Assembly (NCBI RefSeq): GCF_030813595.1
Contig: NZ_JAUSUH010000004.1
Location: forward strand, 248,001-312,000
Source: Ancylobacter vacuolatus
GTDB taxonomy: Bacteria; Pseudomonadota; Alphaproteobacteria; Rhizobiales; Xanthobacteraceae
Direction of reading: 5' to 3'
Length of the DNA stretch: 64,000 nt
The notes beneath the pieces are model-generated. The model saw only the letters and a program-made list of their open reading frames with translations, searched no databases and was not told where the DNA came from. Position 1 is the first letter of the stretch; every line of letters begins with the position of its first letter. Below are positions 39,614-55,837 of this stretch, piece after piece. The translations under genes were made by a program, and so were the position numbers.

Positions 39614-40615
39614 TCAGGCCACAAGCGACCGGCGTTCTTCGGCCTTGCGCACCTCGTCGACGGCGGCGCGCAGCACATAAAGCCCTGCCTCCGGCTTCAC
39701 GCCCTCGGTCGCCAGATGGCGCCGGAAGGCCCGCGCGCCGGGGCGGCCGGTGAACAGGCCGAGCATATGGCGGGTGATGTCGTGGAGCCGGCCACCCGCC
39801 GCAAGGTGGGCGGCGACATAGGGTTCGAAGGCCGCCACGGCGGCAAAGGCATCGGCGTGCGGGTCCTCTTCGCCGAAGAACAGGCTGTCGATCCGCAGCA
39901 GCAGTTCGGGCTGCTGATAGGCGGCGCGACCGAGCATGACGCCATCGACATGCGCCAGCTGCGCCAGCGCGGCGTCCAGAGTGAGAAGGCCGCCATTCAG
40001 GCTGACCGGCACATCCGGCAGCCGGGCCTTCAGCCGATGCACCCGGTCATAGTCGAGCGGTGGAATGTCCCGATTTTCCTTCGGCGACAGCCCCTCCAGC
40101 CACGCCTTTCGAGCATGGACGATGAGCCCGTCCGCCCCTGCCGCCAGCACCGCATCGGCCAGCGCGTCGAGAGCGACCTCAATGTCCTGATCATCGACGC
40201 CGAGCCGGCATTTCACGGTGACGGGGATGGCCACTTCCGCCTTCATGGCGGCCACGCACGCCGCCACCAGCGCCGGATCACGCATCAGGCAAGCACCGAA
40301 ATTGCCGCCCTGCACCCGGTCCGAGGGGCAGCCGACATTGAGGTTGATTTCGTCATAGCCCCACGCGGCGCAGATCACCGCGGCCTTCGCCAGCGCCACC
40401 GGGTCCGACCCACCGAGCTGCACCGCAATCGGGTGCTCGACTTCCGAAAAACCGAGCAGCCGCTCACGGTCGCCGAAGATCACCGCATTCGCCGTCACCA
40501 TTTCAGTATAAAGCAGCGCCCGGCGCGAGAGGACCCGGTGGAACGCCCGGCAATGCCGGTCGGTCCAATCCATCATAGGAGCCACAGAAAATCTAAATGA
40601 TTGATTTATAGACAT
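39614..40615 (-). CDS. dusA: tRNA-dihydrouridine(20/20a) synthase
   Basis: Reduces U20/U20a of tRNA to dihydrouridine with FMN and NADPH. The 333-residue product has FSVAPMMDWTDRHCRAF, INLNVGCPSDRVQGGNFG with catalytic C96, and VTVKCRLGVDD. It is full length. The first twelve codons (ATG at 40615) and the upstream region are strikingly AT-rich compared with the rest, and the change occurs at the motif PMMDWTDRH, exactly the known target of DusA-associated integrases. An integrase remnant lies 112 bases upstream. The start was probably rebuilt by an inserted element. Confidence 0.93.
   Translation of the reverse strand: MSINQSFRFSVAPMMDWTDRHCRAFHRVLSRRALLYTEMVTANAVIFGDRERLLGFSEVEHPIAVQLGGSDPVALAKAAVICAAWGYDEINLNVGCPSDRVQGGNFGACLMRDPALVAACVAAMKAEVAIPVTVKCRLGVDDQDIEVALDALADAVLAAGADGLIVHARKAWLEGLSPKENRDIPPLDYDRVHRLKARLPDVPVSLNGGLLTLDAALAQLAHVDGVMLGRAAYQQPELLLRIDSLFFGEEDPHADAFAAVAAFEPYVAAHLAAGGRLHDITRHMLGLFTGRPGARAFRRHLATEGVKPEAGLYVLRAAVDEVRKAEERRSLVA
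40555..40585. other. possible attachment-site half in the 5' end of dusA
   Basis: The DNA encoding PMMDWTDRH (GTCCAATCCATCAT on the plus strand) is the conserved core used by DusA-directed integrases in other bacteria. GC-rich dusA lies on one side and AT-rich sequence on the other. I could not find a second copy of the core by eye in the window. Confidence 0.45.
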
Positions 40616-40726
40616 ATTATTTCTGTTTTAAGGGGTGGGGTCTTGTCGTGAGCACACGATGTTTCGCCACGACACGCCCCAAGTTCCGATTTTTCGACGT
40701 GTGAGTGCACATGAAGCGCGCACGGA

Positions 40727-40800
40727 TTGGCGACCTTCACTAAACTAAAACCCGGCTCCTGGAGAGCCCAGATCCGACGGAACGGCGCGCTCGGCGCCTC
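40727..40800 (+). pseudogene. remnant of a tyrosine integrase N-terminus
   Basis: From TTG 40727 the reading frame gives MATFTKLKPGSWRAQIRRNG, which closely resembles the first residues (the arm-binding domain) of phage/island tyrosine integrases such as MAxFTKLPSGxWRAQVRRxG. After about 25 residues the similarity stops and the frame runs antisense into the AraC gene. No catalytic domain is present. Its position, next to the dusA start, fits an integrase left behind after loss of a dusA island. Confidence 0.6.
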
Positions 40801-40842
40801 GGCATCAATGACGGCATCTCCCTTGTGCACCGGCGACCGAGC

Positions 40843-41856
40843 TCAGAGCGAGACCAGCCAGTCGGGGAACACACGCCGCGCAGGATCGGCTTCGCCGCCG
40901 GCCCGGCGCCGCGCCACAATGGGCGCCCCTTCCGCGAGGGCGGCGCGCGCCTCGCGGGGGGAACAGCCGTAATAGGCCTTGAAGGCATGGCTGAACTGGG
41001 ATTCGCTGGAGAAGCACAAGGCGTGGCCGATGGCACCCACGGCGGCCGTGCCGGAGCGCAGATCGCGTAGCGCCTGATGCAGGCGCGCCTCGCGAATGGC
41101 GCGCGCAACACCCCCGATCGGCTCAAACAGCCGATACAGGCTCGCCCGCGACATGCCGGTCTCCCGCGCCAGCATGTCTGGGTCCAGCCGCGGGTTCCGC
41201 AAATTCGCGTAGAGCACATCGCGCGCCTTGCGCATGAAGGCGAGATCGAGCTCCGCGCGCGCGTGCCGGGCGTTCTCCCGTCCCGGCTGAAGGCAGGCCG
41301 CGATCAGCTGCGGCGTCAGGGCCAGCAGATCGTCCCCGACGGCGCCGCCGGCGCGCTGGGCGAAGCGCATGAGCGAAACCACATGCTCGGCGAGAAACAG
41401 CGCCTGCGGGGTGAGCAGGCTCTCGCCATGGAATGAGGCCACCGCCTGGCGCGCCGGGCCGGCGAGAGCGTGGCGCGGCAGGATCAACGAGATGTTGTGC
41501 TCGGGCGTCGGCCGGTGATCAATCGGCTGGCCGAGATCGATCACTGTCAGCGCCCGCGCCTGTCCGCCCTTATCGGGCGCGCCGTCGAGATCGATCCGCA
41601 ACATGAGGTGGTCGAGGAAGTCGCGCAGGATGCGTTGGCGCGGACGCTCGAAGCTGAACCGGCGCGTCTGCATGGAACTGACCAGCATCGTCCCAAGATT
41701 GGCGCTGCTGATCCTGCCCTCGAAGCCCAACCGTTGCTCGGTCGAGACTATCCCCATCTCGAACATGGTGTCGATGCGCAAGCGGAAGGCGTCGAACCGT
41801 TCCTCTGGCGAAACAGCCTGCGTCGAGAAATGATGAAAGCGAACGGTCTTCTGCAT
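40843..41856 (-). CDS. AraC-family transcriptional regulator
   Basis: A 337-residue regulator with a C-terminal double helix-turn-helix (about 215-315): LARETGMSRASLYRLFEPIGG in pieces, LRDLRSGTAAVGAIGHALCF and SSESQFSHAFKAYYGCSPREAR. The N-terminal 200 residues resemble the AraC-binding-like (cupin-type) sensor of the 'AraC_binding_2' group, with a HNISLILPRHAL core. Inducer unknown. It is divergent from the TPR gene, which may be a target. Confidence 0.88.
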   Translation of the reverse strand: MQKTVRFHHFSTQAVSPEERFDAFRLRIDTMFEMGIVSTEQRLGFEGRISSANLGTMLVSSMQTRRFSFERPRQRILRDFLDHLMLRIDLDGAPDKGGQARALTVIDLGQPIDHRPTPEHNISLILPRHALAGPARQAVASFHGESLLTPQALFLAEHVVSLMRFAQRAGGAVGDDLLALTPQLIAACLQPGRENARHARAELDLAFMRKARDVLYANLRNPRLDPDMLARETGMSRASLYRLFEPIGGVARAIREARLHQALRDLRSGTAAVGAIGHALCFSSESQFSHAFKAYYGCSPREARAALAEGAPIVARRRAGGEADPARRVFPDWLVSL

Positions 41857-42034
41857 CGTCCCGGCGGTATCTCATTCTAGCCAGCAAGCGGATCGGCGCG
41901 CAACGATCAGTGTTTGAGACGCCTGCGCAAATCCAGCCGATCACTCTGCGACGCAGACGATAGCACTTGTGACTGTTCTTTCGATAGCGTGCTGCGCTCC
42001 GTTCAGATCACCCAACGTCAAGGCGTCCCAACTC

Positions 42035-43258
42035 ATGCATGTCGGCAGTCTTGCGCGCACGCGCGTCACCCCCCTGATTGCGCTGGTCGGTCTTTTGCTC
42101 CTCGCCGGCTCAGCTTCGGTCTGGTCGGCGCCCGATCCAGCCATCGCCGACTGCGACGCGCTGGCGGCCAGCCCCAATGACGCCGTTCCCGGACGGGCCG
42201 GCGTCGCCTTGGAGGACATGGACGGCGAACGCGCCCGGGAGGCGTGCAGGAAGGCGCGCAGCGTCGATCCCGCCAATGCGCGCCTCGCCTTCCAGCTGGG
42301 GCGCGCCGAGCAGAAGGTCGGCAACTACAGCGAGGCCCTCACGCGGTTCGAAGAGGCCCGCAGCGGAAACTACCGGCTTGCCGATGTCGCTATCGGTATC
42401 CTCTACGACCACGGCCTCGGCGTGCCCCAGGATTACGGCCGGGCGCTGGAACACTACAATCGCGCGGCCGAGGCGGGAATCGGTGTCGGCCTCAGCAATG
42501 CCGCCGATTTTTATGCGGAGGGCCTGGGCGTGACGCGGGACGACGCCAAGGCGCTTGCGCTCTACCGGCAGGCGACGGCCGCCGGCTATGTTCCCGCCTA
42601 TGGCAAGATCGCCGACCTGCTTGCCAGCACCTATGCGCAGGGCGATGATCCCCGCCCGGTGATCGACGCCTACATGGTTGCATCCGCGCATGGCATCGGC
42701 TTCGCCGATTCCGAGTTGGGGCAGTTCTACCGCGATGGCCGGTTCGGTTTGCCGGCCGACACCCTTGCCGCTCGCGCCCATTTCGAGGCCGCCATGGCGG
42801 CGGGCGATGAGTGGGCGGCTCTCCATCTCGCCGAACTCCTTGTGTTCAGCCGCGACACGGCGCGGCGCGATCGGGCCCGCGCGGCCGAGCTGCTCGCCGG
42901 CCCGGCCGAAACCGGCGCGCCGCCGCTGCGCGCCACCGCGCTGGCGCTGCTGGCGGAGATCGCCCTGCAGCGGAAAGGAGCGGAAAAGCAGGCGGCCGCC
43001 CTGATCGAACAAGCGCTTGCGCTCCAGCCCGAGAGCGCCATCGCCCAGGCCGCCCTGGCAGAACTGCTGCTGCGCACGCAGGACTTTCACGGGGCCGATG
43101 CTGCGCTTACCAAGGCGATCGAGGCGGCCCCGGACTGGGCGCCCTATCATCTTCGCCGCGCAAGCGTGCAGGACGAGCTGCATCAGCCGGAGGCGGCTGC
43201 GACGCTGCGGGCGAGCGCCGGCACGGCCACCGAGGGTGCCGGCCTCCAGCCGCGATAG
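42035..43258 (+). CDS. exported Sel1/TPR repeat protein
   Basis: A 407-residue protein with a signal peptide (VTPLIALVGLLLLAGSASVWSA) followed by a mature N-terminus with Cys (IADCDAL). Sel1-like repeats include LADVAIGILYDHGLGVPQDYGRALEHY and SNAADFYAEGLGVTRDDAKALALY (each quoted region read in parts), and TPR-like helices fill the C-terminal 120 residues. Such proteins bind partner proteins in the periplasm. ATG 42035 is chosen as the start since it directly opens the signal peptide. Its regulation by the divergent AraC gene is possible. Confidence 0.75.
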   Translation: MHVGSLARTRVTPLIALVGLLLLAGSASVWSAPDPAIADCDALAASPNDAVPGRAGVALEDMDGERAREACRKARSVDPANARLAFQLGRAEQKVGNYSEALTRFEEARSGNYRLADVAIGILYDHGLGVPQDYGRALEHYNRAAEAGIGVGLSNAADFYAEGLGVTRDDAKALALYRQATAAGYVPAYGKIADLLASTYAQGDDPRPVIDAYMVASAHGIGFADSELGQFYRDGRFGLPADTLAARAHFEAAMAAGDEWAALHLAELLVFSRDTARRDRARAAELLAGPAETGAPPLRATALALLAEIALQRKGAEKQAAALIEQALALQPESAIAQAALAELLLRTQDFHGADAALTKAIEAAPDWAPYHLRRASVQDELHQPEAAATLRASAGTATEGAGLQPR

Positions 43259-43276
43259 CGGGCGCGGGCAACAGCT

Positions 43277-43340
43277 AGAGCATTTTTCGAGCGAAGTGGG
43301 TTCCAGTTCGCGTGAAGAAAATGCGTAAAAACAAAAACCT
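43277..43340. repeat. Rhizobiales dispersed repeat (AGAGCATTTTTCGAGCGAAG type)
   Basis: The sequence AGAGCATTTTTCGAGCGAAG ... GTTCGCGTGAAGAAAATGCG is an imperfect inverted repeat found many times in Rhizobiales genomes. It ends in an A-rich run (43327-43337). Confidence 0.75.
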
Positions 43341-43381
43341 AAAGCACGTCCGGTGAATCGGCTTTCACCGGACGTGCTTTA
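43340..43381. terminator. 18-bp perfect hairpin between convergent genes
   Basis: TAAAGCACGTCCGGTGAA is exactly mirrored by TTCACCGGACGTGCTTTA around a 6-base loop (TCGGCT). It is the longest perfect stem in the window and lies between the TPR and GMC genes. It can act as a terminator in either direction, though the T tail is short. Confidence 0.65.
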
Positions 43382-43458
43382 GGCACGAGGCCCGGTGTCC
43401 ATGGCCGGCGCGGCCTTCGGGCATCGGCCCGACCGCGATTCGAAGAAGGTCGCCGCGC

Positions 43459-45156
43459 TCAGCGCCCGTCGCAGATGAAGCCGGCGATGCGCTCGGCGAT
43501 CATGATGGTGGGCATGTTGGTGTTGGCGCGCGGGATGGACGGCATCACCGAGGCATCGGCGACGCGCACGCCCTCGACGCCCAGCACAGCGCCAAGCGGC
43601 GATGTCACAGCCTGGGGGTCGTCGGCCCGGCCCATGCGGCAGGTTCCCGAGGGATGCCAGGTGCCGCCGACATTCGTCCGCACGAAATCGGTGAGCGCAT
43701 CGTCGTCGGAGAGGAGGCCGCGCAGGGTGATGCCCTGCGTCACGACGGCATGGATCAACGCCGTGCGCAGCGGGCCGGCCCAATCGAGCAGTCGGGCAAG
43801 CGCGCCGCGCTGCATCGCGTTCCAGGCGCCGGGCACCGCGATCCTGGCGACACGCGGCGTGTAGCTTGCCGGGAACACCACGTCGCGCGCGCCGTCCATG
43901 CCGGGATCGAGCAGAACCTCTCCGCCCATGCGGAGCGCCGCCTTCAGGCGGACAAGGTCGCGCTCGTCGCTGAGCATGCGGAAATCGACCTCCGGCTCCA
44001 CGCTTGGGTCGCGCGAAGCAAGGCGCAGGAAGCCGCGCGACCAGGACTTGTTCACCCAGAAGAACAGGCTGCCGGTGCGCAGCCCCACCGAATGCCAACC
44101 GGCGCGCGAGAGTATCGCCGCGTGCATGTCGCCGGCCGGCGCGCCGGGCAGGCCAGAGGAGTAGCGCCAGATCGCCTGTTCATGGTGCTCGCCCAGGTTG
44201 CGCTCGCGCAAGCGTGGCGGCAGCCAGGTCGCGACCGCGATGGAGGGGTGCTCCATCAAATTGCGGCCGACGCCCCGCCGGTCGGCGACGACCGGAATGC
44301 CGAACGCGCGTAATTCTTCTGCCGGGCCGATACCGGAGCGCAGCAGCAGCGTGGGCGAGTGGATGGCGCCGGCCGCGAGCACCACTTGCCGCGCCGCGAT
44401 GGCGAAGCGCCGGTTCCCGGCCGCCTCGACCTCGGCGCCGATGGCACGGGCACCCTCGAACAGCAGGCGGGTTGCGGCATGGCCGGTGAGGATCGTCAGG
44501 TTCGGACGGCGCCGGACCTCGGGCGTCAGATAGGCGAGCGAGGTCGGTTGGCGCTGGCCGCGATCATCCACCGCCACCACGCCGCGGAAGGTGCCGTCTT
44601 CCCAAATCCCGTTCTGGTCGGGCAGGATCGGGTAGCCGCGCCTGTCCAGCGTCGTCATCACACGGTGGACGAAGGGCGAGATTTGCGCGTCGCCGATGCG
44701 GCGCAGCACCAGCGGGCCGTTGCAGCCATGCAGCGGTCCGTCGAAATCGCGGTCGGCCTCCAAGGCGCGGAACACCGGCAGGCAGGCCTCCCAGTTCCAC
44801 CCCTCCGCGCCGAGCGCCTCCCATTCGTCATAATCGCCAGGCGCGCCGCGATTGGCCATCAGGGCGTTGATCGCCGAGCCGCCGCCGAGAATCCGGGCCT
44901 GTTCGTAGCGCCGTGGCCGGCGGCCGGCATTCCTCGTCGCGCCGCCCATCAGCGCCGTCAGGCCGCTCCAGATGTTGGTACTGTCGAGATAGGCGCGGCC
45001 GGGATAGCGGGCCTGCACCTCGGCCGGGATGTCGCCGACCGACACATTGCGCCCGGCCTCGACGAGGAGGACATCCCTATGCGGGTCTTCGGAGAGCCGC
45101 GCGGCCAGCACGCAGCCGGCCGACCCACCGCCGAGGATCAGTATGTCCGTGTTCAT
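43459..45156 (-). CDS. GMC-family FAD oxidoreductase (choline-dehydrogenase-like)
   Basis: Oxidises an alcohol group with FAD. The 565-residue product has the GMC N-terminal FAD fold DILILGGGSAGCVLAARLSE, GGATRNAGRRPRRYEQARILGGGSA in parts with GGSSAIN-like GGGSAINAL, and the C-terminal active-site block GTWHPSGTCRMG plus NTNMPTIMIAERIA with the catalytic His/Asn. The start is ATG 45156 (MNTDILILGG). It is the last gene of the ABC unit, 4 bases after the permease stop. Substrate: an alcohol delivered by the transporter, by inference. Confidence 0.9.
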   Translation of the reverse strand: MNTDILILGGGSAGCVLAARLSEDPHRDVLLVEAGRNVSVGDIPAEVQARYPGRAYLDSTNIWSGLTALMGGATRNAGRRPRRYEQARILGGGSAINALMANRGAPGDYDEWEALGAEGWNWEACLPVFRALEADRDFDGPLHGCNGPLVLRRIGDAQISPFVHRVMTTLDRRGYPILPDQNGIWEDGTFRGVVAVDDRGQRQPTSLAYLTPEVRRRPNLTILTGHAATRLLFEGARAIGAEVEAAGNRRFAIAARQVVLAAGAIHSPTLLLRSGIGPAEELRAFGIPVVADRRGVGRNLMEHPSIAVATWLPPRLRERNLGEHHEQAIWRYSSGLPGAPAGDMHAAILSRAGWHSVGLRTGSLFFWVNKSWSRGFLRLASRDPSVEPEVDFRMLSDERDLVRLKAALRMGGEVLLDPGMDGARDVVFPASYTPRVARIAVPGAWNAMQRGALARLLDWAGPLRTALIHAVVTQGITLRGLLSDDDALTDFVRTNVGGTWHPSGTCRMGRADDPQAVTSPLGAVLGVEGVRVADASVMPSIPRANTNMPTIMIAERIAGFICDGR

Positions 45157-45160
45157 GGCG

Positions 45161-45946
45161 CTAGACCCGCCCGCGCTCGCCACGCGCATTGAGCGCCACC
45201 AGCATGACGATAAGGAAGGAGACGGCCGTGAGCAGCGTACTGATCGCGGCAATGGTCGGATCGATCTCGTCGCGCAGCGCGGTGAACATGCGCTTGGTCA
45301 GCGTCTGGTACTGGCCGCCGGAAATGAACAGGGCCACCACCGTCTCGTCGAGCGCCGAGATGAAGGCGAACAACAGGCCCGTGATCACGCTCGGCCGGAT
45401 CTGCGGCAGGGTGACGATGAAGAAGGTGCGCAGCCGGTTCATGCCCAGGCTGCGCGAGACCATCTCCTGCGCCGGATCGAACTTCCTCAGCCCCACCAGT
45501 ACCGAGGTGATGACATAGGGCAGGCCGAGCATGACATTGGCGAGGATCAGGCCGGTCATGGTCGCGAGCAGACCGACATTTGCATAGACGAGGAACACGC
45601 CCACGGCGGTGATCACGATCGGCACCACCAGAGGCAGCATCAGCACGACCTGCAGGCTGCGGACCAGGCGCGAACTGGCGAGATTGAGCGCATAGGCGGC
45701 CGCTGTCCCCATCACTGTGGCGATGATGGCGCTCGCCACGGCAACGGTCAGGCTGACCCGCGTCGCCTGCATCCAGGCGGGGCTGGCGAGATAGGCCTCG
45801 TACCAGCGCAGCGACCAGAAGGGCGGTGGAAAGGCGAGGAAGCGCGCGCCGGAGAACGACATCGGCACGATGATGACAATGGGAATGATCAGCCACAGCA
45901 GGACGAGGCCGACGAAGGCGCGCAAAAGGAGCTTGGAGACCGCCAT
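45161..45946 (-). CDS. ABC transporter permease (PotC-type)
   Basis: A 261-residue inner-membrane subunit of a spermidine/putrescine-type importer, with six helices and the EAA-like loop EMVSRSLGMNRLRTFFIVTLP. The last part is typical of PotC (ALDETVVALFISGGQYQTL). ATG 45946 lies 2 bases after the upstream permease stop. A much longer open frame continues upstream but overlaps the partner genes and is a shadow. Confidence 0.9.
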   Translation of the reverse strand: MAVSKLLLRAFVGLVLLWLIIPIVIIVPMSFSGARFLAFPPPFWSLRWYEAYLASPAWMQATRVSLTVAVASAIIATVMGTAAAYALNLASSRLVRSLQVVLMLPLVVPIVITAVGVFLVYANVGLLATMTGLILANVMLGLPYVITSVLVGLRKFDPAQEMVSRSLGMNRLRTFFIVTLPQIRPSVITGLLFAFISALDETVVALFISGGQYQTLTKRMFTALRDEIDPTIAAISTLLTAVSFLIVMLVALNARGERGRV

Positions 45947-45948
45947 GG

Positions 45949-46821
45949 TCAGCGCGCCCCCATGATGCGCTCGAACGGGATCACGAGGCTGGCGAGGCGG
46001 AAAATGAAGAACACGCAGGCCAGCAGCACCACGCTGATCGAGGAGGCCGCGCCCCATTCGTTGTAGACCTCGATGTTGCGCGAGACCAGCATGGAGACCA
46101 TGTAGGTCCGCCCGCCGCCGAGCAGCTCCGGCGTGATGTAGAAACCGAGCGTCAGCACGAAGACCAGAACCATGCCGGCGACCACGCCAGGCAGGGAGAG
46201 CGGCAGGAACACGCGCAGGAACACGTGCAGCGGCGTACCGCCGAGGCTTGAGCCCGCCATGGTCAGTTCGGGCGGGATCTTCTGCATGGTGGCGTAGAGC
46301 GGCAGCACCATGAAGGGCAGCAGGATGTGCACGGTCGCGACGATGGTGCCGAACTCGTTGTTGACCAGCGTGAGCGGGGCGTCGATGAGCCCCAGTTCGG
46401 TCAGCGCGGTGTTCACCAGGCCGCGCCGCTGCAGCAGGATCAGCCAAGCATAGGCGCGCACGAGAACGCTGGTCCAGAACGGCAGCACCACCATCGCCAG
46501 AATGAAAAGGCTCCAGCGCCGGGAGGTCCCCGCCGCCACATAGGCAACGGGATAGCCGAGGATGAGAGCCGCGGCCGTCACGATGAAGGCCATGCGGAAG
46601 GTCTGCAGGAAGGTCATCCAGTAGACGTCGTCGGTCAGAAACCGGGCGTAGTGCGCCAGGGTGAAACCGCCATCCTGCCGAACCGATTGCCAGGCCAGCC
46701 AGCAGAGCGGCACGATCAGGAGACCTCCCACCACGGCGAGCGCCGGCGCCAGCAGCAGCAGAACCAGGCGTCGCTCGCGCCGCTGATGGGCGAGCGACGA
46801 GTTGACCGACGACATCGACAT
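45949..46821 (-). CDS. ABC transporter permease (PotB-type)
   Basis: A 290-residue partner permease with a basic N-terminus and six helices. PotB-type features are VLPFWTSVLVRAYAWLILLQ, the EAA-like loop MAGSSLGGTPLHVFLRVFLP, and LGFYITPELLGGG. It is coupled tightly to the genes on both sides (27 bases from the receptor gene, 2 to PotC). Confidence 0.9.
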   Translation of the reverse strand: MSMSSVNSSLAHQRRERRLVLLLLAPALAVVGGLLIVPLCWLAWQSVRQDGGFTLAHYARFLTDDVYWMTFLQTFRMAFIVTAAALILGYPVAYVAAGTSRRWSLFILAMVVLPFWTSVLVRAYAWLILLQRRGLVNTALTELGLIDAPLTLVNNEFGTIVATVHILLPFMVLPLYATMQKIPPELTMAGSSLGGTPLHVFLRVFLPLSLPGVVAGMVLVFVLTLGFYITPELLGGGRTYMVSMLVSRNIEVYNEWGAASSISVVLLACVFFIFRLASLVIPFERIMGAR

Positions 46822-46848
46822 GGAAGCCTCCTCGCTCGCAGCCGTCGC

Positions 46849-47886
46849 TCACTTCTGGATGAAGGATGCCCAGCGCTTCTGCGCCTCCTCGCCCGCCGGC
46901 GAGCTCCACCACGCCACCGAGATCAACACCTGCTTGGCCGCATTCTCCGGCGAGCTCGGCATCTGCGCGGCGCGCTCGGGTGAGATCTTGCCCGTCTTGT
47001 ACGCGGCGGGGTTGCCCGGGCCGTAATCGATATAGGCCGGGAAGTTCGCCTGGATGTCCGCCGAGATCGCCGCGTTCAGGAACTTGTAGGAGGTGTCCAG
47101 ATTGGGCGCGCCCTTGAGGATGCAGAGCGAGGTTTCCTGAAGGAATCCCTGATTGAAGGTGTAGCCGATCGGCGCGCCTTCCTTGATCACCGCGGTGACG
47201 CGGCCGTTCCACGCCATCTCCATGTCGATCTCGCCATCGGCGAGGAGTTGCGCCGACTGGGCGCCGGACGTCCACCACACGGTGACATGGGGTTTCAACT
47301 CCTCCAGCTTTCTGAAGGCCCGGTCGACATCGAGCGGGTAGAGCTTGTCGGCCGGCACCCCGTCCGCCAGCAGCGCGGCCTCCAGCGTCGCCATCGGATG
47401 GCTGCGCAGTGCCCGCGTGCCCGGGAATTTCTTCACGTCCCAGAAATCGGCCCAGCTCTTCGGCCCGTTCTCGCCGTACTTCTGCTTATTGAAAGCAAGG
47501 ACCGACGAATAGAACTCATAGGGAACCGAATGTTCCGTTTTGTAGTCGGCGGGAATTTCAGCGGCATTGGGCAGCCGGGAGAAGTCGAGCTTCTCGATCA
47601 TGCCCTGCTCGCCGCCGCGAATGCAGTCCTTGGTCGGCGTGTCGATCACGTCCCAGATCGGCTTGCCGGTCGCGGTCTGTGTCTTCAGCACCGGCCAGGC
47701 GTCAGGCGAGGAGTCCTGGTTGATGGTGATGCCGAGCAGTTTGGCGACCGGATCGAGGATGGCCTTGGTCTGGGCCTCCTGATAGGCGCCGCCCTGGGAG
47801 ACGAAGGTGATCTGTTCGGCCGAAGCGGCCGCGGCCGACAGCAGCAGAGCCGCCGTTATCGCAGGGATCGAGAGTGTCACGCGCAT
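46849..47886 (-). CDS. ABC transporter periplasmic receptor (PotD/PotF-like)
   Basis: A 345-residue solute-binding protein with a signal peptide (MRVTLSIPAITAALLLSAAAASA). It has ITFVSQGGAYQEAQTKAILD at the start and WDVIDTPTKDCIRGGEQGMIEK; the second half has WWTSGAQSAQLLADGEIDMEMAWNG in parts. This is the PotD-like cluster D receptor family that binds polyamines, opines and other small amines. The acidic polyamine residues cannot be checked without alignment. The start is ATG 47886; the frame further upstream overlaps the next gene. Confidence 0.88.
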   Translation of the reverse strand: MRVTLSIPAITAALLLSAAAASAEQITFVSQGGAYQEAQTKAILDPVAKLLGITINQDSSPDAWPVLKTQTATGKPIWDVIDTPTKDCIRGGEQGMIEKLDFSRLPNAAEIPADYKTEHSVPYEFYSSVLAFNKQKYGENGPKSWADFWDVKKFPGTRALRSHPMATLEAALLADGVPADKLYPLDVDRAFRKLEELKPHVTVWWTSGAQSAQLLADGEIDMEMAWNGRVTAVIKEGAPIGYTFNQGFLQETSLCILKGAPNLDTSYKFLNAAISADIQANFPAYIDYGPGNPAAYKTGKISPERAAQMPSSPENAAKQVLISVAWWSSPAGEEAQKRWASFIQK

Positions 47887-47948
47887 TCCGATTCTCCTCT
47901 GGTCATTTTTATCGGCCGCTGTCTCAGACGAGCGATGGTCGCGGCGCG

Positions 47949-49271
47949 TCATCGCCCTATGGCGTCGAGGAACTGGTACCAGCCCGCGACCAGGCGGACG
48001 GCGGGTTCGCGCAGTCCGTAGAGGGGGATGTGAGGAAGCGGCTGCCGCGTCAGCAGGCCGAGATCGGGCGAGCCGCCAGTGACCAGCGCGGCGACATGGC
48101 GGCCGATTCCGGAGGCGAGGGCCACGCCGGTGCCGTTGTAGCCAACCGAATAGACGACGCGGTCGTCGAGCCGCCCGAGATGCGGCAGGCTGTCCAGCGT
48201 CATGGCGACCAGCCCCGACCAGCGATGTGTCACCCTCACCGAGGCGAGCTGCGGGAACTGGCGCACCATGGCCTTTTCCAGCGCCGCGAAGGCCGACGCG
48301 CTGTCGCTCTTGCCGAAGGCGCCGCGCCCGCCATAGAGCAGGCGATCGCCCGATTTTCGGAACCAGCGCATCATGCGCCGCGTCTCGGTGTAGCTGCGCC
48401 CGCTCGCCAGCAGCCCTGCTCCCGGAGTGCCCGCCAGCGGTTCGGTCGCGATCATCGCCGAACGGAACGGGATGATCGACGTCCGCACGCTCGCGGTTGC
48501 CGGTGTCAGGTCGGAATAGGAATTGGTGGCGATGACGAGCTGGCGCGCGGTGATCCGTCCGGTTGGCGTCTCCACAACGACGCCGACTCCCTCGCGCCTG
48601 ACGCCGATGACGGTCGTGTTCTCATGGATGACGATCCCCAAGGCCTTGAGCCCAGCGGCCATTCCCAGCACGAAGTTGAGCGGATGGATGACACCGCCAT
48701 GGGTGTTCAGCATGCCGCCGGTGAAACCATGAGAGCCGGTCTCGGCCGCCACCTCCCCGGCACTCAGGATCGAGACCCCGGTGTCGCCCAGTGCCTCGCG
48801 CATCCATGTGGCTTCGCTCCTGAGCCCCTCGAATGTGTGCGCATTATGGGCGCAGCGCAGCGAACCCGACGGGCGGTAATCGGCGCCCGCTATGCCGAGC
48901 TCCTCGACCAGCTGGCCGACATGGTCGACCGCCTCCAGCCCGAGAGCGTGCATGCGCCGCGCCGTGTCGAGGCCATGGCGCGCTGCGATATCCTTGAAGC
49001 CGACGCGGAACTTGCCGGACACCACGCCACCATTGCGCCCGCTGGCACCCCAGCCGATGCGGTTGGCCTCGATGACCACTGGCGAGAGCCCCGCCTTGAC
49101 GAGATAGCGCGCGGTGCACAGCCCGGTATAGCCGCCGCCGATGATGGCGACGTCGAAGGACTGGTCGCCCGACAGACTCCCGAACTCCGGCCGTGCGACT
49201 GAGGTTGCCCGCCAGAGGGAGTCGATGTCGACCGAGGAGGTTGGGAGAACCATGACCTTCATGCTCGACAT
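47949..49271 (-). CDS. FAD-dependent amine oxidase-like protein (DAO/PuuB family)
   Basis: A 440-residue flavoprotein of the D-amino acid oxidase/gamma-glutamylputrescine oxidase family. It has the dinucleotide site DVAIIGGGYTGLCTARYLVK, IEANRIGWGASGRNGG (the typical 'GWGASGRNGG' box of PuuB), and HRWSGLVAMTLDSLPHLGRL near the C-terminus. It probably oxidises an imported secondary or primary amine and makes an aldehyde. The stop codon of the upstream HAD gene overlaps the ATG (49271). The following receptor gene starts 63 bases later. Confidence 0.88.
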   Translation of the reverse strand: MSSMKVMVLPTSSVDIDSLWRATSVARPEFGSLSGDQSFDVAIIGGGYTGLCTARYLVKAGLSPVVIEANRIGWGASGRNGGVVSGKFRVGFKDIAARHGLDTARRMHALGLEAVDHVGQLVEELGIAGADYRPSGSLRCAHNAHTFEGLRSEATWMREALGDTGVSILSAGEVAAETGSHGFTGGMLNTHGGVIHPLNFVLGMAAGLKALGIVIHENTTVIGVRREGVGVVVETPTGRITARQLVIATNSYSDLTPATASVRTSIIPFRSAMIATEPLAGTPGAGLLASGRSYTETRRMMRWFRKSGDRLLYGGRGAFGKSDSASAFAALEKAMVRQFPQLASVRVTHRWSGLVAMTLDSLPHLGRLDDRVVYSVGYNGTGVALASGIGRHVAALVTGGSPDLGLLTRQPLPHIPLYGLREPAVRLVAGWYQFLDAIGR

Positions 49272-49993
49272 CAGGCGGCCGCACGAGCGTCGGCGCGTTC
49301 CGCATCAACCGCATCGGCAAGCTGCTTGAGCGAGGAGAAGTGCAAGTCTGGCGTGGTGAGCACCTTGGGATCGGGCGTGCCGCCGAAGCCCTTCTGACCC
49401 TGGCGACGCTCGATCCAGCAGGTGGTGTAACCCTCGGCCTTGGAGACGCCGATGTCGTGGTACTGGCTCTGCGCGACATGCAGGATCTCGCACTGCTGGA
49501 AGCCGAGCGCGGACTGCCGGCCCTTGTTAAAGGCGAAGAAGCGGGGATCCGGCTTGGCGCATCCGGTCTCGTCGCAGGTGACGCTGTCATGGAACGGATT
49601 GCCGAGCGTGGCGGAATAGGCGGAGAAAGCGGTGCGGTCCGCATTGGTCATGGCGACGAGGCGGAAGTTGTTCCGCAGCCGGCGCAGAGCCTCGACGGAA
49701 TCGGCGAAGGCCGGCCAGCGCAGCACCGCGAGCTGGAAGGCCTCGGCGGTGGCATCGTCGTTCCTGAAGCCGCATTCATTGGCGAGCGACAGGTAGACGT
49801 CCTTCATGGCGAAGGAGGAGCGCCCATAAAACTTGTCGCGGCCGCGCTTGTAGGGCTCGAAGATTTCGTCGTCGCTGGCTGCCGCCGCCTTCGGCCCGCC
49901 CAGCGCGCGCACCGCGCTCAGGACACCCGCCTCGAAATCGATCAGCGTGCCGACCACGTCGAACGTCATGACCTTGAAATCGGTGAACTTCAT
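49271..49993 (-). CDS. type II haloacid dehalogenase-like HAD hydrolase, copy 1
   Basis: A 240-residue HAD-superfamily protein annotated by family as type II L-2-haloacid dehalogenase. Motif I is FDVVGTLIDFEAG (D12 nucleophile), motif II MTNAD, motif III KPDPRFF, and motif IV HVAQSQYHDIGVSKAEG. The dehalogenase serine-asparagine box (SSNxxD) is SQYHD here, so dehalogenation is doubtful. It may be a phosphatase or phosphonatase-like enzyme instead. It overlaps the FAD oxidase by one base and has a paralogue at 51310. Start ATG 49993. Confidence 0.82.
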   Translation of the reverse strand: MKFTDFKVMTFDVVGTLIDFEAGVLSAVRALGGPKAAAASDDEIFEPYKRGRDKFYGRSSFAMKDVYLSLANECGFRNDDATAEAFQLAVLRWPAFADSVEALRRLRNNFRLVAMTNADRTAFSAYSATLGNPFHDSVTCDETGCAKPDPRFFAFNKGRQSALGFQQCEILHVAQSQYHDIGVSKAEGYTTCWIERRQGQKGFGGTPDPKVLTTPDLHFSSLKQLADAVDAERADARAAA

Positions 49994-50030
49994 TTTCTGC
50001 GTTCCTCTTGGCAGGTATCGGTAATTCGGG

Positions 50031-51122
50031 TCAGCGGACGTTCGGCACCACGATGGTGTCATCCGGGTGGATAGCGACGGCGATGCGCTCGCCCGGCGCC
50101 TTGATCTGCGAACGGCCCTGGTGATTGCTCGGCACCCGGAGGCTGAGCCGTGCCCCACGGTCGAGCTCCAGGAAGATGCGGATGCTCTCGCCCTGGTAGA
50201 GCGTCTCGGTCACAAGGCCGCTTAGCACGTTCGCCATTCCCGGCATGGCGTCCGCGACGATGGTGAGCTTCTCGGAATGGACAGCGAGGAACAGTTCGGC
50301 GTCGGCCGGCACCGGGCGCGCGGAGATGAGGGGCGTGCCGTCGAGATCGACCGAGCGGTCATCGATGCGCCGCACCGGCAGAAGCGTCGCCTCGCCGATA
50401 AAGCCGGCGACAAAGGCATCCGCTGGATGGTCGTGCAGGCGCTCCGGCGTATCGACCTGGATCAGCTGCCCCTTGTTCATGACCGCGACGCGATCGCTCA
50501 TGGTGAGCGCCTCGCGCTGGTCGTGGGTCACATAGATCATCGTCGCCGCCAGCTTGCGGTGCAGGTGCTTGAGTTCGATCTGCATGGTCTCGCGCAGCTG
50601 CTTGTCCAGCGCGGAGAGCGGCTCGTCCATCAGGATCAGGCGCGGCTCGAAGATCATGGCGCGGGCGAGTGCCACGCGCTGGCGCTGGCCGCCGGACAGC
50701 TCGTGGATCTTGCGCTCGCCGAAGCCGCCGAGCTCGACCATGTCGAGCGCGGATTTGAGCCTGGCCGGCCATTCGGACTTCGGCATGCGCCGCGCCCGCA
50801 GGGGGAAGGTCACGTTCTCCGCGACGTTCATGTGCGGGAACAGCGCGTAGTTCTGGAACACGATACCGATGTCGCGCTTGTGCGGCGGCTCGAAGGTGAT
50901 ATCGCGCTCGCCGAGGAAGATCGAGCCGGCGGTCGGCTGGACGAAGCCGCCGAGAATGCCGAGCAAGGTGGTCTTGCCCGAGCCGGACGGCCCCAGTATC
51001 GAGACGAATTCCCCCGGCGCAACGTCGAGATTGATCACGTCCAGCGCGCGGAAGCTTCCATAGAACTTCGAAGCGGCCCGGATTGAGACCCCTACCGTGT
51101 TGCGAGATATCGTACTCGACAT
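50031..51122 (-). CDS. ABC transporter ATP-binding protein (PotA-type)
   Basis: A 363-residue ATPase for the Pot-type importer. Walker A GPSGSGKTT is at about 44-52, the Q-loop is FQNYALFPHM, the signature LSGGQRQRVALARA, Walker B LILMDEPLSALD and the H-loop TMIYVTHDQ. A C-terminal TOBE domain (residues about 275-363) matches the CUT1/PotA group. ATG 51122 is favoured over GTG 51152, as it aligns with the family start. It is 37 bases before the HAD gene. Confidence 0.92.
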   Translation of the reverse strand: MSSTISRNTVGVSIRAASKFYGSFRALDVINLDVAPGEFVSILGPSGSGKTTLLGILGGFVQPTAGSIFLGERDITFEPPHKRDIGIVFQNYALFPHMNVAENVTFPLRARRMPKSEWPARLKSALDMVELGGFGERKIHELSGGQRQRVALARAMIFEPRLILMDEPLSALDKQLRETMQIELKHLHRKLAATMIYVTHDQREALTMSDRVAVMNKGQLIQVDTPERLHDHPADAFVAGFIGEATLLPVRRIDDRSVDLDGTPLISARPVPADAELFLAVHSEKLTIVADAMPGMANVLSGLVTETLYQGESIRIFLELDRGARLSLRVPSNHQGRSQIKAPGERIAVAIHPDDTIVVPNVR

Positions 51123-51309
51123 GCTGTCTCGCTTTATCATCCAGGAAAACACGACGCTTCACGCAGGCCATCGGCCGGCACAAAGACACACTTCGGCCAC
51201 GTGACCTTTTTGCCCATTCTGCGGGTGGCAATACTGGTCCCGATCTTCGGCCCATGGGCCGCAGGCACCGCCACTTCGCACACGGTTCGTTCTTCCCGGC
51301 GCGTCGGGT

Positions 51310-52026
51310 TTACCCTTCACGGTCCACGGCGTCGGCCAGTTCCACCAGGCTCGCATAATGGAAATCGGGCCGGGTCACGACGCTCGGCGCCGGCGAGCCG
51401 CCAAAGCCTCGCTTGCCCATTCGCCGCTCGATCCAGGCCGTGCGATAGCCGAGCTGCCTGGCAACGCCGATATCGTGGTACTGACTCTGCGCAACGTGGA
51501 GATAGTCTTCCAGCTTGTAGCCCTGCGGACTCTGGCGACCCCTTGTGTAAGCGAAGAACTGAGGGTCCGGCTTGCAGGTCCCGACATCCTCGGCTGTCAC
51601 CGTGTCGTCGAAGGGCTGCTGCATCGTCTGCATGAAATGACCCAGCGCCCAATTGTCCGAATTGGTCATCGCGACAATGCGATAACGCTTCCGCAGCCGC
51701 TTCAGCGCATCGACCGTATCTGGGAAGGCCGGCCAGGCCGGAATGGACTCTCGGAAGCCCTCCACCGTGGCCTTGTCCGCGGGAAGCCCCAGTTCTGCGG
51801 CCATGGCCTGATAGGCCGGCGCCATCATCAGCGGGAAGGGTAAGCCGGGCGTCCGGTCGTGCTCGAAACCTTCCGCCTTTCCATAGCTCAGCAGGATCAC
51901 CTCGTCGTCGAGCTGCACTCCCGCCCGCTGGGCGATCGGACGGACATATTCGAGTATGCCGGCCTCGAAATCGATCAGTGTGCCGACAACGTCGAAGGTG
52001 AGAATTTTGAAGTCGCTGAGGTTCAT
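51310..52026 (-). CDS. type II haloacid dehalogenase-like HAD hydrolase, copy 2
   Basis: A 238-residue paralogue of the gene at 49271 with matching motifs: FDVVGTLIDFEAG (D12), MTNSDNW, CKPDPQFFAY and HVAQSQYHDIGVARQ. The region that holds the dehalogenase substrate-binding Arg is different in the two copies (YKRGRDKFYG against YGKAEGFEH), which suggests different substrates or that neither is a dehalogenase. It is the first gene of the unit, facing the LysR gene. A 187-base gap then separates it from the ATPase gene, where an internal promoter could lie. Confidence 0.82.
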   Translation of the reverse strand: MNLSDFKILTFDVVGTLIDFEAGILEYVRPIAQRAGVQLDDEVILLSYGKAEGFEHDRTPGLPFPLMMAPAYQAMAAELGLPADKATVEGFRESIPAWPAFPDTVDALKRLRKRYRIVAMTNSDNWALGHFMQTMQQPFDDTVTAEDVGTCKPDPQFFAYTRGRQSPQGYKLEDYLHVAQSQYHDIGVARQLGYRTAWIERRMGKRGFGGSPAPSVVTRPDFHYASLVELADAVDREG

Positions 52027-52071
52027 CGGATGCCTGCCCGGTTTGGGAACACAAGCGAACGCTAGCCGGCT

Positions 52072-52103
52072 TGTCAGAATGACAGAAATGATATGTTATC
52101 ATT
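52072..52103. promoter_or_regulatory. two perfect palindromes in the LysR/HAD divergent promoter
   Basis: TGTCA-GAA-TGACA (52072-52084) and AATGATA-TGT-TATCATT (52087-52103), only 2 bases apart. The second contains T-N11-A (TGATATGTTATCA), the classic LysR box. They lie 46-51 bases before the HAD start and 20-51 before the LysR start, so LysR may bind here to control both. Confidence 0.7.
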
Positions 52104-52122
52104 CTCATCATCGAATTTTGTC

Positions 52123-52989
52123 ATGGCCTGCGATATGCGTCTCGATATCGACTCTCTGCGCGCTTTCAAGACCGTTCTGGAACTGGGGGGTGTCACGCGT
52201 GCCGCTCACAAGCTGAACCTGACCCAGTCGGCCGTCAGCCATAAGCTGACCCGGCTCGAGGAACGCATCGGCCGTCCTATTCTGCTTAAAGGCAGCAGTG
52301 GTTTCGTTCCGACTTCTGATGGGCGGAGCCTTCTGTCCTATGCCGAACGTCTGATTGCCCTGCATGATGAGGCGGCAGCGCACTTCCAATCGTCTGAACT
52401 GGCCGGCGAGGTCCGGCTGGGCACGACCGAGGATGCCGCCTGCGAATGGATGGCGGCCGTGCTGGGTCGCTTCAGAAGGCTGCACCCCCGTGTCTCGTTG
52501 AGCATTCGCGTGGCGCAAAGCCTCGTCCTGGAGCAATGGCTCCGGGCGGGAGATCTGGATCTTGCGATGATGCAGATATTTGCTCATGAGAAGGAACCGA
52601 ATGACCTGGAATTATGGAGAGAAGACCTGATTTGGGTGCAGTCTATCGACCACCCTTTCACGTTAGAAAATAATATTCCGTTCGTTTCTTTCGATAAAAA
52701 TTGCTTCTACCGCCGCGCAGCCCAAGATGCACTGGCGGAAACCGGGCGACACCTCAACATCGTCCTGGAGTGCCCGAGCTGCGATGGCGTGACAGCCGGG
52801 GTGCGCCATGGATTGGGCGTGGGCGTGATAAGCCGTCGGCAGCTAAGGCCCGGCCTGATGGAGATCCAAGGCGACCTTCCTGTCTTTCCCCAGATCTGCC
52901 ACATCGCCCGCTCGAGCAATGCGTTGCCGGCAGATATTGAGAAGACGCTGATGGAAGCCGTCTCCGAGAAGATGATCGGTGATCGATAG
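52123..52989 (+). CDS. LysR-family transcriptional regulator of the amine/alcohol unit
   Basis: A 288-residue LysR protein with an N-terminal winged helix (MRLDIDSLRAFKTVLELGG, RAAHKLNLTQSAVSHKLTRL) and a co-inducer domain. It is divergent from the eight-gene unit at 43459-52026 and close to two palindromes, so it probably controls that unit. GC content is lower in its second half (52590-52700), which is AT-rich compared with neighbours. The ATG at 52135 is an alternative start. Confidence 0.9.
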   Translation: MACDMRLDIDSLRAFKTVLELGGVTRAAHKLNLTQSAVSHKLTRLEERIGRPILLKGSSGFVPTSDGRSLLSYAERLIALHDEAAAHFQSSELAGEVRLGTTEDAACEWMAAVLGRFRRLHPRVSLSIRVAQSLVLEQWLRAGDLDLAMMQIFAHEKEPNDLELWREDLIWVQSIDHPFTLENNIPFVSFDKNCFYRRAAQDALAETGRHLNIVLECPSCDGVTAGVRHGLGVGVISRRQLRPGLMEIQGDLPVFPQICHIARSSNALPADIEKTLMEAVSEKMIGDR

Positions 52990-53299
52990 GCTGCAGTCGC
53001 ACGACGCCGACGCAGCCAGATCGACCGAGAATTGACGATGCTGTCCCCCGGCCCGACCCCGGGGCCGATGTTACGACCAATCTCCTCGCCATAAAATCCC
53101 CTCCGGAAAGGAGGAGCGTTACATTGCATACCGACAAGCCATGCCATCGCGTCGGCGGCCCGACGGGTGCGCACCAAGGCCTAAGCGCGACCGTGCTATT
53201 CCAAGACCTTTAGTTCTTCTGGGCTCGAAACCAGCTTTCCATGGCGGAAGGAAACCAATGATCGACGCCGCATTCAATTGAAAAAATATCCGAACAAAG
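52990..53299. other. gene-free gap between two LysR genes
   Basis: 310 bases with no convincing gene. The last 50 bases are AT-rich, with a perfect 10-bp palindrome TTCAATTGAA at 53273-53282, probably part of the control region of the next gene. Confidence 0.5.
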
Positions 53300-53312
53300 T
53301 TACATAATGTAA
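53300..53312. promoter_or_regulatory. 13-bp palindrome that overlaps the start codon of the second LysR gene
   Basis: TTACATAATGTAA is a perfect inverted repeat with T-N11-A spacing. Its last base is the A of the ATG at 53312. A regulator bound there would block transcription or translation start, as in autorepression. Confidence 0.5.
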
Positions 53313-54268
53313 TGCGCAAACTTCGCCTCGCCCTGCCGTCGATGAATGGCTTCTTCACGTTCGAGGCGGCGGCCCGCTGCGGCAACTTCGCCCGCGCCGC
53401 CGAGGAACTCAACGTGACGCCGGCCGCCGTGAGCCGGATGATGGGCCGGCTGGAGGACCATCTCGGCATCATCCTGTTCGACCGCACGCCCGGCGGGGTG
53501 ACGCTGACTGAGGCCGGGCGGATCCTCTATGAGGCCGTCTCGCGCGGCTTCTCGGGCTTCGAGCATGCCCTGCGCGAGATCGAGGACCGCAAGACGGGCG
53601 TTCAGACCGTCACCCTGTCGGTCTCGACCGGCTTCACGACACACTGGATCATGCCGCACATGGCGGAGATCAAGCGGGCCTTCCCTTCGCTCGAACTGCG
53701 TTTCCAGCTCATCATGTCGGCGCTGTCCGGGCCGGTATCGGATGTCGACCTCGGCATGCGCTTTGTCGACGGCCCGGACGAACGGCATGAGGCAAACTAC
53801 ATCATGCCGGAGATTCTGGTGCCGATCTGCAGCCCCGGATACCGCGAAAGGCAGCAGCATTCGCCGTCCGATGCGGCGACGGAGAGCTTGATCAATTTCG
53901 GCGACGCGCAGCCCGACTGGTCGCAGGTGTTCTTCCCCGGCGACCCCGGCGCGGCGACCAATTCAATGATCTTCTCCGACTATGCGATCGTCGTGCAGGC
54001 GGCGATGCTGGGTCAGGGCGTCGCGCTCGGCTGGCTCAACGTCATCTGCCACTGGCTGCGGACCAGGGCGCTTGTCCCGGCAAGCCCCGGCATCAAGGTC
54101 ACGGGTCGGCACTGCCAGTTCGTGCGCTCGCGCGACAAGCCGCTGCGACCGATCGTGGCCGATCTGCGCGACTGGATCATTACGCGGCTCGGCGAGGATG
54201 TCAGGCAGGTCGCCCAGCTCTATCCGGAGCTTCAGCTCGAAACGGTGCTGGAACGCAGCCGCGGGTAA
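53312..54268 (+). CDS. LysR-family transcriptional regulator (GcvA-like)
   Basis: A 318-residue regulator. The N-terminal helix-turn-helix (LPSMNGFFTFEAAARCGNFA, RAAEELNVTPAAVSRMMGRL) matches the GcvA/AmpR branch. The substrate domain is complete. No ribosome-binding site is visible before ATG 53312. It is followed by decayed catabolic genes, so it may be a regulator whose target has been lost. Confidence 0.88.
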   Translation: MRKLRLALPSMNGFFTFEAAARCGNFARAAEELNVTPAAVSRMMGRLEDHLGIILFDRTPGGVTLTEAGRILYEAVSRGFSGFEHALREIEDRKTGVQTVTLSVSTGFTTHWIMPHMAEIKRAFPSLELRFQLIMSALSGPVSDVDLGMRFVDGPDERHEANYIMPEILVPICSPGYRERQQHSPSDAATESLINFGDAQPDWSQVFFPGDPGAATNSMIFSDYAIVVQAAMLGQGVALGWLNVICHWLRTRALVPASPGIKVTGRHCQFVRSRDKPLRPIVADLRDWIITRLGEDVRQVAQLYPELQLETVLERSRG

Positions 54269-54353
54269 GCACTCGATCGCTGTGGCTGTGCCGGAAAGTT
54301 TTGATCACCAGAACCAAATTTCGGCATCAGTTGAATAGCTCGCGCGACTTGCG

Positions 54354-54540
54354 ATGCAGCGGCTGCGGGAGATCTGGCTCGGCAAACCGGCTGACGCGGC
54401 CCTGGCTGACGCCAGCGTGGAATCGACGCTGGCCGCCATGGGCCGCGACTACTGGCCCTGTGGCTTCACGGCCGCGCGCACCGAGCTTGCCGCCGCCTGC
54501 CGCGAGTCCAGCGAGCAGCTCCTCGCCATCAAGATGGCCT
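54354..54540 (+). pseudogene. C-terminal remnant of a 4,5-dihydroxyphthalate decarboxylase-like protein
   Basis: The translation LAAMGRDYWPCGFTAARTEL resembles the end of proteins of the 4,5-dihydroxyphthalate decarboxylase/ABC receptor family, where relatives read like LMGDDYWPYGLEANR. An in-frame TAG lies at 54336-54338, and no upstream part is present. The end of the homologous segment is approximate. Confidence 0.5.
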
Positions 54541-54630
54541 CGCCGGTCTTCACCACCCCCATCGTCCAGAGCACGCACTCGGTGATCGACCAGGTCACAC
54601 CGACCGCCAGCTTCGCCCAATCGGAGTTGG

Positions 54631-54843
54631 TCTTGCTGCGACATTCCCCGGCCGCCGCCGGTTCTCGCACTGGTGCTGGCGCCGATGCTGGAGATGTCGC
54701 TGCGCCAGTCGCTGCTGCTTTCCTTCGGCAGCCTGTCGATCTTCGTCGAGCGCCCGATCTCCGCCGTACTTCTGATGGTGGTTCTGCTCTCCCTCGCGCT
54801 GCCCTTCTTCGGCGCGCTGAAGCGGTCCCGGGCCAGTTCCTGA
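54631..54843 (+). pseudogene. C-terminal remnant of a tctA-family permease gene
   Basis: The last 65 or so codons of a TctA-type permease in the plus frame ending at TGA 54841-54843. VLALVLAPMLEMSLRQSLLL aligns with the corresponding [20 protein letters not shown] of the intact TctA at 12273-13784, and the following helix is present. The first 440 residues are missing. It is a relic of a deleted transporter gene, different from the intact tctA. Confidence 0.8.
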
Positions 54844-54890: not shown

Positions 54891-55697
54891 TCAGGCCGTT
54901 TCAAGCCGGGCGAGGTGGAGCTTCACGCCGCTCTTCTCAGCCACCCTGGCGAGATCGCCGACCGGCGCCGCCTCGGTGACGAGCAGGTCGATGTCGCGGA
55001 GCGAGCCCAGCCGCACCAGCCCGCGACGGCCAAACTTGCTGCTGTCAATGGCCAGGATCACCCGCCCGGCCTGCATCATGGCGGCACGCACGGCGGCGAC
55101 TTCGGCATAATCGTCATCGCCGATATCGCCATCCTCGTCGATGCCGCTCACCGAGATGACCACGAAATCGAACTTGAACGCCTGAATGAACTCGGCCGAA
55201 GTCTGGCTGAACACGCCGCCATCCACCTGCCGCACGAAACCGCCCGGCACGGCGATGGTGAAGTCCGTGCAGTCGCTCAGGGTCGACGCGACGCGCAGGC
55301 TGTAGGTCACGATGCGCAGCGCCTTGTGGTCGATGAGCGCGCGGGCGACGGCCTCGCAGGTGGTGCCGGTATCGAGGAAGACAGAGGCGTTGTCGGGCAC
55401 AATGCGGGCGATGGCGGCGCCGATGGCGTCCTTCGCCTGCGCATTGGCGATGCGGCGCTGGCGATAGACGGTCGGATCGATCGGCGTCGAGGCCACCGCG
55501 CCGCCATGCAACCGGCGCACCTTGCCCTCCAGTTCGAGCGCGACGATGTCCCGCCGCGCGGTCTGGGTCGTCACCGAGAAACGGCTCGCGATCTCCTCGA
55601 TCGAAATGTAGCGGTGCTGTTCGAGGTGCTGCACCAGAAAGGCGCGGCGACGCGCCTTCTTGCCCTCATCATCCCGCTCGTCGTCGCGCATCTGCAT
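54891..55697 (-). CDS. DeoR/GlpR-family transcriptional regulator
   Basis: A 268-residue repressor with a DeoR helix-turn-helix (ISIEEIASRFSVTTQTARRD, LEGKVRRLHGGA) and the sugar-phosphate sensor domain (DTGTTCEAVARAL, VVISVSGIDEDGDI). Effectors are usually sugar phosphates. It stands upstream of, and on the same strand as, no obvious sugar genes. The autotransporter gene on the same strand ends 123 bases upstream of it. ATG 55697 is preferred; GTG/ATG 55715 and ATG 55691 are alternatives. Confidence 0.88.
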   Translation of the reverse strand: MQMRDDERDDEGKKARRRAFLVQHLEQHRYISIEEIASRFSVTTQTARRDIVALELEGKVRRLHGGAVASTPIDPTVYRQRRIANAQAKDAIGAAIARIVPDNASVFLDTGTTCEAVARALIDHKALRIVTYSLRVASTLSDCTDFTIAVPGGFVRQVDGGVFSQTSAEFIQAFKFDFVVISVSGIDEDGDIGDDDYAEVAAVRAAMMQAGRVILAIDSSKFGRRGLVRLGSLRDIDLLVTEAAPVGDLARVAEKSGVKLHLARLETA

Positions 55698-55837
55698 GTG
55701 GGTTCTCGAAAGCACAGCGTCAAAATAGCCAGCGACCCATGCGGCGCCGGTTCAGCGCCGCATGGGTCGAGACGGCTCATTGCCGGCCGGGACCTCACGT
55801 CCCGGCCGGCAGATTATGAGTACGGAACGCCGGCGCG

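Follow-up and report, generated by a model that had tools for sequence, protein, structure and literature searches.

Probable remnant of a dusA-targeting integrative element at the 5′ end of dusA in Ancylobacter vacuolatus

The window analysed here, a 64,000-nucleotide stretch comprising bases 248001–312000 of contig 4 in the 5.02-Mb, 29-contig genome of Ancylobacter vacuolatus, carries at 40569–40787 what we read, with a probability of about 0.9, as the left half-site of a dusA-targeting integrative element joined to a stub of its integrase gene. It belongs to a known kind, as a remnant of the elements of dusA-associated integrases, and would be a case in which the start of a housekeeping gene was rewritten by mobile DNA and retained after the element itself had decayed. 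Below, genomes are designated by G numbers and individual loci by L numbers.

An AT-rich dusA start and an integrase stub

The gene encoding tRNA-dihydrouridine synthase A, dusA, lies complete on the minus strand at 39614–40615 (Pfam Dus, E 3.6e-78, residues 11–303 of 333). The initial annotation had described its 5′ end, up to the PMMD codons, as abruptly AT-rich, and the base composition bears this out: the GC content is 34% (0.344) at 40577–40640, a segment that includes the first ~13 codons, as against 67.7% (0.677) for the window and for the remainder of dusA (39614–40576). Within the window, 47 of 63,936 64-mers are as AT-rich as this segment, 34 of them beginning at 40558–40591; because the other 13 lie near 52.6 and 53.2 kb, the trough at the dusA start is rare but not unique. 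The codons ahead of PMMD have sequence in common with element ends (start codons plus spacer) of other genera, and by this comparison we judge them to be element-derived. The inferred recombination core of the left half-site, TCCATCAT, occupies 40569–40576 on the plus strand; an internal repeat of G013 begins exactly at this sequence, which also stands after the right-end arm in G013, G016 and G012. The putative left arm of the element, formed by the AT-rich dusA start and the spacer between dusA and the integrase, follows at 40577–40726 and is recognised by two spacer profiles (48.7 and 41.5 bits; described below). It contains decayed GTGTGCAC-like repeats at 40648–40657 and 40703–40723 (up to 2 mismatches).

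The stub of a tyrosine integrase gene was likewise found where it had been proposed, 112 bases from the dusA start codon and divergent from dusA. This 5′ stub of ~20 codons (40727–40787, plus strand), recognised through the integrases of relatives, begins with TTG at 40727 (LATFTKLKPGSWRAQIRRNG), and its translation matches the N-terminus of the G016 integrase with 83% identity across 18 residues (E 2.7e-6). It ends ahead of the catalytic tyrosine-recombinase domain, and Pfam returned no match for the short stub alone. Further integrase pieces were absent from positions 40101–64000 (E <= 1e-3), and none of the eight other PF00589 matches in the genome falls in the window. An integrase N-terminus is similarly spaced from the core in 13 of the 24 other genomes of the genus (core to integrase residue 1: 151 in the window, 141–154 in the 13 relatives). 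The integrase frame is complete and open in G010 and G012 (PF00589, E 7e-22 and 2.6e-21) and broken in G001, G005, G016 and G017, which were those inspected; G004 has another integrase (37% identical). For the relatives' integrase, NCBIfam gave generic recombinase models only, under their cut-offs, and PHROGs gave integrase families (best phrog_1, E 1.9e-51). A search of 36–64 kb of the window with Rfam yielded no match at gathering score.

A spacer shared with an integrase family of other genera

Relatives of the G010 integrase are encoded in 239 stretches of a species-genome collection, of which the best 80 were kept. Among these best 80 of 239, dusA adjoins a divergent integrase at 75 loci; dusA was not seen at the other five, two of which sit where the retrieved DNA ends, the remaining three (L116, L175 and L162) having no dusA within 6, 6 and 2.7 kb of upstream DNA. 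The G010 query lacked its first 10 residues, so that the raw gaps between integrase and dusA (63 to 184, commonest 143) are overstated by 30; once corrected, the commonest gap is 113, and that of the window is 112.

A DNA profile of the ~115-bp spacer between integrase start and dusA start was built from 72 loci, all from other genera, after two Ancylobacter loci and one that was too short had been removed from the 75. The window scores 48.7 bits with this profile (best of 3000 dinucleotide shuffles, 9.9) and 41.5 bits with a strict profile of 62 more distant loci, from which the nearest had been removed (best of 4200 shuffles, 6.7). Together with the 75 integrase loci beside dusA, these scores support the earlier proposal that a dusA-associated integrase rebuilt the dusA start. 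Near both ends of the spacer, GTGTGCAC-like and facing GTGCACAC-like repeats occur at 44 of the 75 loci (up to 1 mismatch), as against at most 2 in any of 100 shuffle sets; we infer that these repeats are arm-type integrase sites.

The distribution of the spacer also bears on a different account, in which the AT-rich stretch is a dusA promoter and start native to the genus and held by selection, and the integrase gene beside it is incidental. In keeping with that account, the spacer profile exceeds 10 bits in 18 of the 25 genomes of the genus including our own, that is, in 17 of the 24 relatives, and four of these (G011, G015, G020 and G023) match it without an integrase N-terminus. However, the spacer is missing from G018 and G022 and scores at or under shuffle level in G002, G003, G004 and G009; G008, at 8.5 bits, is borderline and completes the genomes below 10 bits. 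Moreover, among the 15 of 16 same-order outgroups that were scored (G040 was left out), 14 lack the spacer, and the one above 10 bits (L189, 14.8 and 16.5 bits) is the sole one with integrase pieces. Distant genera carry the same spacer beside an integrase, and in G013 the start, spacer and integrase are repeated jointly 11 kb away. We therefore regard a native promoter as scarcely credible, and favour an element-derived start. Matches to the profile reveal scars that lack an integrase N-terminus, which makes past dusA insertions countable beyond the reach of integrase searches. In L189 (genome G033), the dusA-side integrase is shortened by an internal deletion, yet a single frame stays open from the start codon through the C-terminal motifs.

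Gene order breaks at the dusA start

Gene order was compared among the 25 genomes of the genus. At least half of the 4 kb on the 3′ side of dusA is common to 422 of 600 ordered pairs, whereas at least half of the 4 kb on the 5′ side is common to only 23 of 600. Gene order thus breaks at the dusA start. Conservation of both the AT-rich start and the following genes throughout the family, which had been named as the observation that would speak against a scar, was not seen: the start and spacer are present in 17 of 24 relatives, and the genes behind them differ. In G002 and G009 (L043, L045, L069 and L070), dusA appears inverted relative to its neighbours, and the gene beyond the dusA 3′ end in the window is found, with its neighbour, on the 5′ side.

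The 150 bases of dusA start and spacer are 99.3% identical between G012 and A. gelatini, whose dusA bodies are 75.8% identical, and 97.3% identical between G010 and Xanthobacter oligotrophicus, whose dusA bodies are 76.1% identical. Element ends that are up to 99% identical where dusA is at 76% indicate that the ends move horizontally. In a set of 15 genomes of the genus, which counts G020 with its spacer but without an integrase (14 of the 105 pairs), the spacer is more alike than dusA in 35 pairs and not in the other 70, which is what decay of a non-coding scar would lead one to expect. Identity reaches 88.7–92.7% in the 13 closest spacer pairs, with dusA at 73.9–83.4%. A single insertion in the ancestor of the genus, followed by vertical inheritance and decay everywhere, would explain why 18 of 25 genomes have the same type of spacer, but it agrees poorly with these identities and with the different genes found behind the spacer in different clades, and we consider it very unlikely. 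Rather, the comparisons indicate that elements reached the same spot in dusA more than once in related species.

The spacer closest to that of the window in the 15-genome set is from G010 (85.0%; dusA 82.0%). Of its nearest relatives by dusA, G020 has a spacer identity of 72.2% (dusA 89.8%) and G024 of 81.0% (dusA 86.5%). Our reading is that one insertion occurred in the ancestor of G000, G020 and G024 and has decayed since; a separate insertion in the lineage of the window would also explain the low spacer identity to G020 and G024.

Complete elements and displaced starts in relatives

The initial annotation had proposed looking for a second copy of the core to the right of dusA. This search was negative across the whole genome, with dusA as the sole hit at up to 3 of 25 mismatches; an 18-base form of the core, at up to 2 mismatches, returned dusA plus imperfect matches at four places, none of them on the contig of the window. 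The right-end arm was also absent from the own genome. Two features of dusA-specific genomic islands are present, namely an integrase gene adjoining the 5′ end of dusA and replacement of that end by element sequence, the latter indicated by the spacer profile, the starts of other genera and the joint repeat in G013; an attL and attR pair flanking an island was not found in the own genome. Because neither a second core nor a right-end arm was recovered, we class the window as a remnant and not as an island. The proposal that 40.6 kb is the left end of a decayed island thus stands as to the breakpoint, the element-derived start and the decayed integrase, whereas an island with two ends could not be shown in this genome.

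By contrast with this genome, three of the 25 contain a right end of the first type. These three, G013, G016 and G012, hold apparently complete elements of 11.0 kb, ~24.1 kb and ~91.5 kb, with the TCCATCAT core at both ends and another element-type dusA start behind the right end. Two copies of a unit made up of core, start, spacer and an integrase segment lie 11,005 bp apart in G013, with 394 of 402 bases identical; at this 98% identity, a duplication could be an alternative. The right-end core of G016, traced by means of the G013 right-end arm, lies at 758,809, ~24.1 kb from dusA, and after the displaced dusA start comes an integrase-like start, within a spacer that has decayed strongly. The scores of this spacer (3.2 and 1.5 bits) fall within the range of the shuffles, so that the case for an older layer in G016 comes from the core, the homology of the dusA start and the integrase-like start. 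In G012, the right-end core lies at 793,947, ~91.5 kb from dusA, with an arm that has 3 mismatches in 32; the displaced start is followed by an apparent N-terminus of a different integrase, and the surrounding sequence has 65% identity to a Phenylobacterium dusA–integrase locus (L149). In G004, a second exact core lies correctly oriented on another contig, 3.5 kb short of its end; should the two contigs adjoin, this genome would perhaps hold a ~14.7-kb element carrying the other integrase. For G010, whose integrase is open, a search at up to 3 of 32 mismatches found no right end.

These displaced starts raise the possibility, to which we give slightly less than even odds, that the dusA start acts as a ratchet: each new element would displace the start left by an earlier one, and the newest would be retained because dusA depends on it. 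The scar in the window would then be one kept layer. If so, the sequence of arrivals would be recorded in the layers outward from dusA, and it may be readable in the three relatives that keep a further start beyond a complete element.

A composite stretch follows the scar

Pfam matches identify an accessory islet at 40843–43270, consisting of an AraC-type regulator (40843–41856, minus strand) and a Sel1/TPR protein (about 42038–43258, plus strand). By DNA search (E <= 1e-60), the islet occurs in one of the 24 relatives, G024, at the same place. ARAGORN reported a tRNA-Arg at 42852–42943, enclosed by the TPR gene and on its opposite strand, which we take for a probable chance match. Behind the islet, 43455–54260 encodes a GMC oxidoreductase, ABC transporter proteins, an FAD oxidoreductase, a HAD hydrolase and a LysR regulator (Pfam). 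This block was sought in nine relatives. It adjoins dusA in G020 and G024, lies away from dusA in G016 (near 3.50 Mb) and G013 (contig 13), is split between both ends of the 232-kb contig 3 in G002 and is present in part on contig 13 of G014; G009, G010 and G022 gave no match at E <= 1e-120. A dispersed, partly palindromic repeat of ~105 bp lies at the left edge of the block (43284–43391), and an 86.5% identical copy (L064:10026-10128) is present to its right, at another point where alignments with relatives are interrupted; the repeat might take part in rearrangements.

Whether the entire 40.6–54.3 kb, with its oxidoreductase and ABC genes, was cargo of the dusA element can be weighed against these positions. 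The block comes directly after the half-site in G000, G020 and G024, and the 11-kb element of G013 also holds genes that, by eye, seem metabolic. Against cargo, the block is found elsewhere in G016, G013 and G002 at 82–88% identity, close to the 85–89% of the dusA 3′ flank for G016; its edges carry no dusA core, and in G020 it follows the spacer with neither stub nor AraC/TPR islet between them. We consider cargo unlikely; as the block is elsewhere in some species, it probably came by another route.

Sequence common to the dusA neighbourhoods of other relatives resumes at 54639 (G020 and G024) or 54891 (G016), so that the flanking chromosome probably resumes near 54.6–54.9 kb. It includes a DeoR-type regulator and an autotransporter (54891–59364; Pfam), which are near dusA in G016, G002, G009, G022, G020 and G024 and on other contigs in G013 and G014. 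Between block and flank, 54277–54640 holds short open fragments that look permease-like by eye (transporter); G020 and G024 have about 4 kb extra at this position. The initial annotation had the window change to accessory genes from 40.6 kb on. The islet and block are indeed there, but the ~14 kb after the scar is, on its matches in relatives, a composite and not an intact island.

Taken together, the comparisons suggest the following course. The integrase would have recombined the element with dusA around the PMMD codons, at the core on the plus strand, so that the old dusA start was displaced to the far end of the element and replaced by the element's own ATG, first ~13 codons and spacer. 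The integrase gene is now shortened to ~20 codons and the right end is missing, changes that probably came later. The AraC/TPR islet and the catabolic gene block now abut the stub, by a route that may have differed between them and the element. The half-site was probably retained because it provides dusA with a start codon that the gene requires, and perhaps also with its promoter.

Discussion

Islands of the dusA-associated integrases have been described as inserting in the 5′ end of dusA, replacing its start and ending in 21-bp repeats, and they occur in Alpha-, Beta- and Gammaproteobacteria (Farrugia et al. 2015, PMC4482086). A phylogenetic position beside the Rci recombinases is a further criterion for dusA-associated integrases. 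The window resembles the islands in that account in its dusA 5′ target, its new start from the island and its integrase gene beside dusA, and the complete elements of the Ancylobacter relatives resemble them in their end repeats. Unlike those islands, the window has a left half-site and ~20 integrase codons without a right end. The main text of that paper mentions no intergenic, arm-type or inverted repeat and does not name Ancylobacter, Starkeya or Xanthobacter.

Elements related to SGI1 have been reported at dusA in Vibrio, including a tandem pair, IEVpaBan1a and IEVpaBan1b (PMC8409611). Layered starts over decayed older ones, and a spacer common across classes, were not met in the parts of these two papers (PMC4482086 and PMC8409611) considered here. 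According to the second, the Vibrio elements have the same dusA target and imperfect 21-bp end repeats, and they are mobilised by IncC plasmids. Unlike the Vibrio tandem pair (PMC8409611), the stacks in Ancylobacter appear to sit over older, partly decayed dusA starts.
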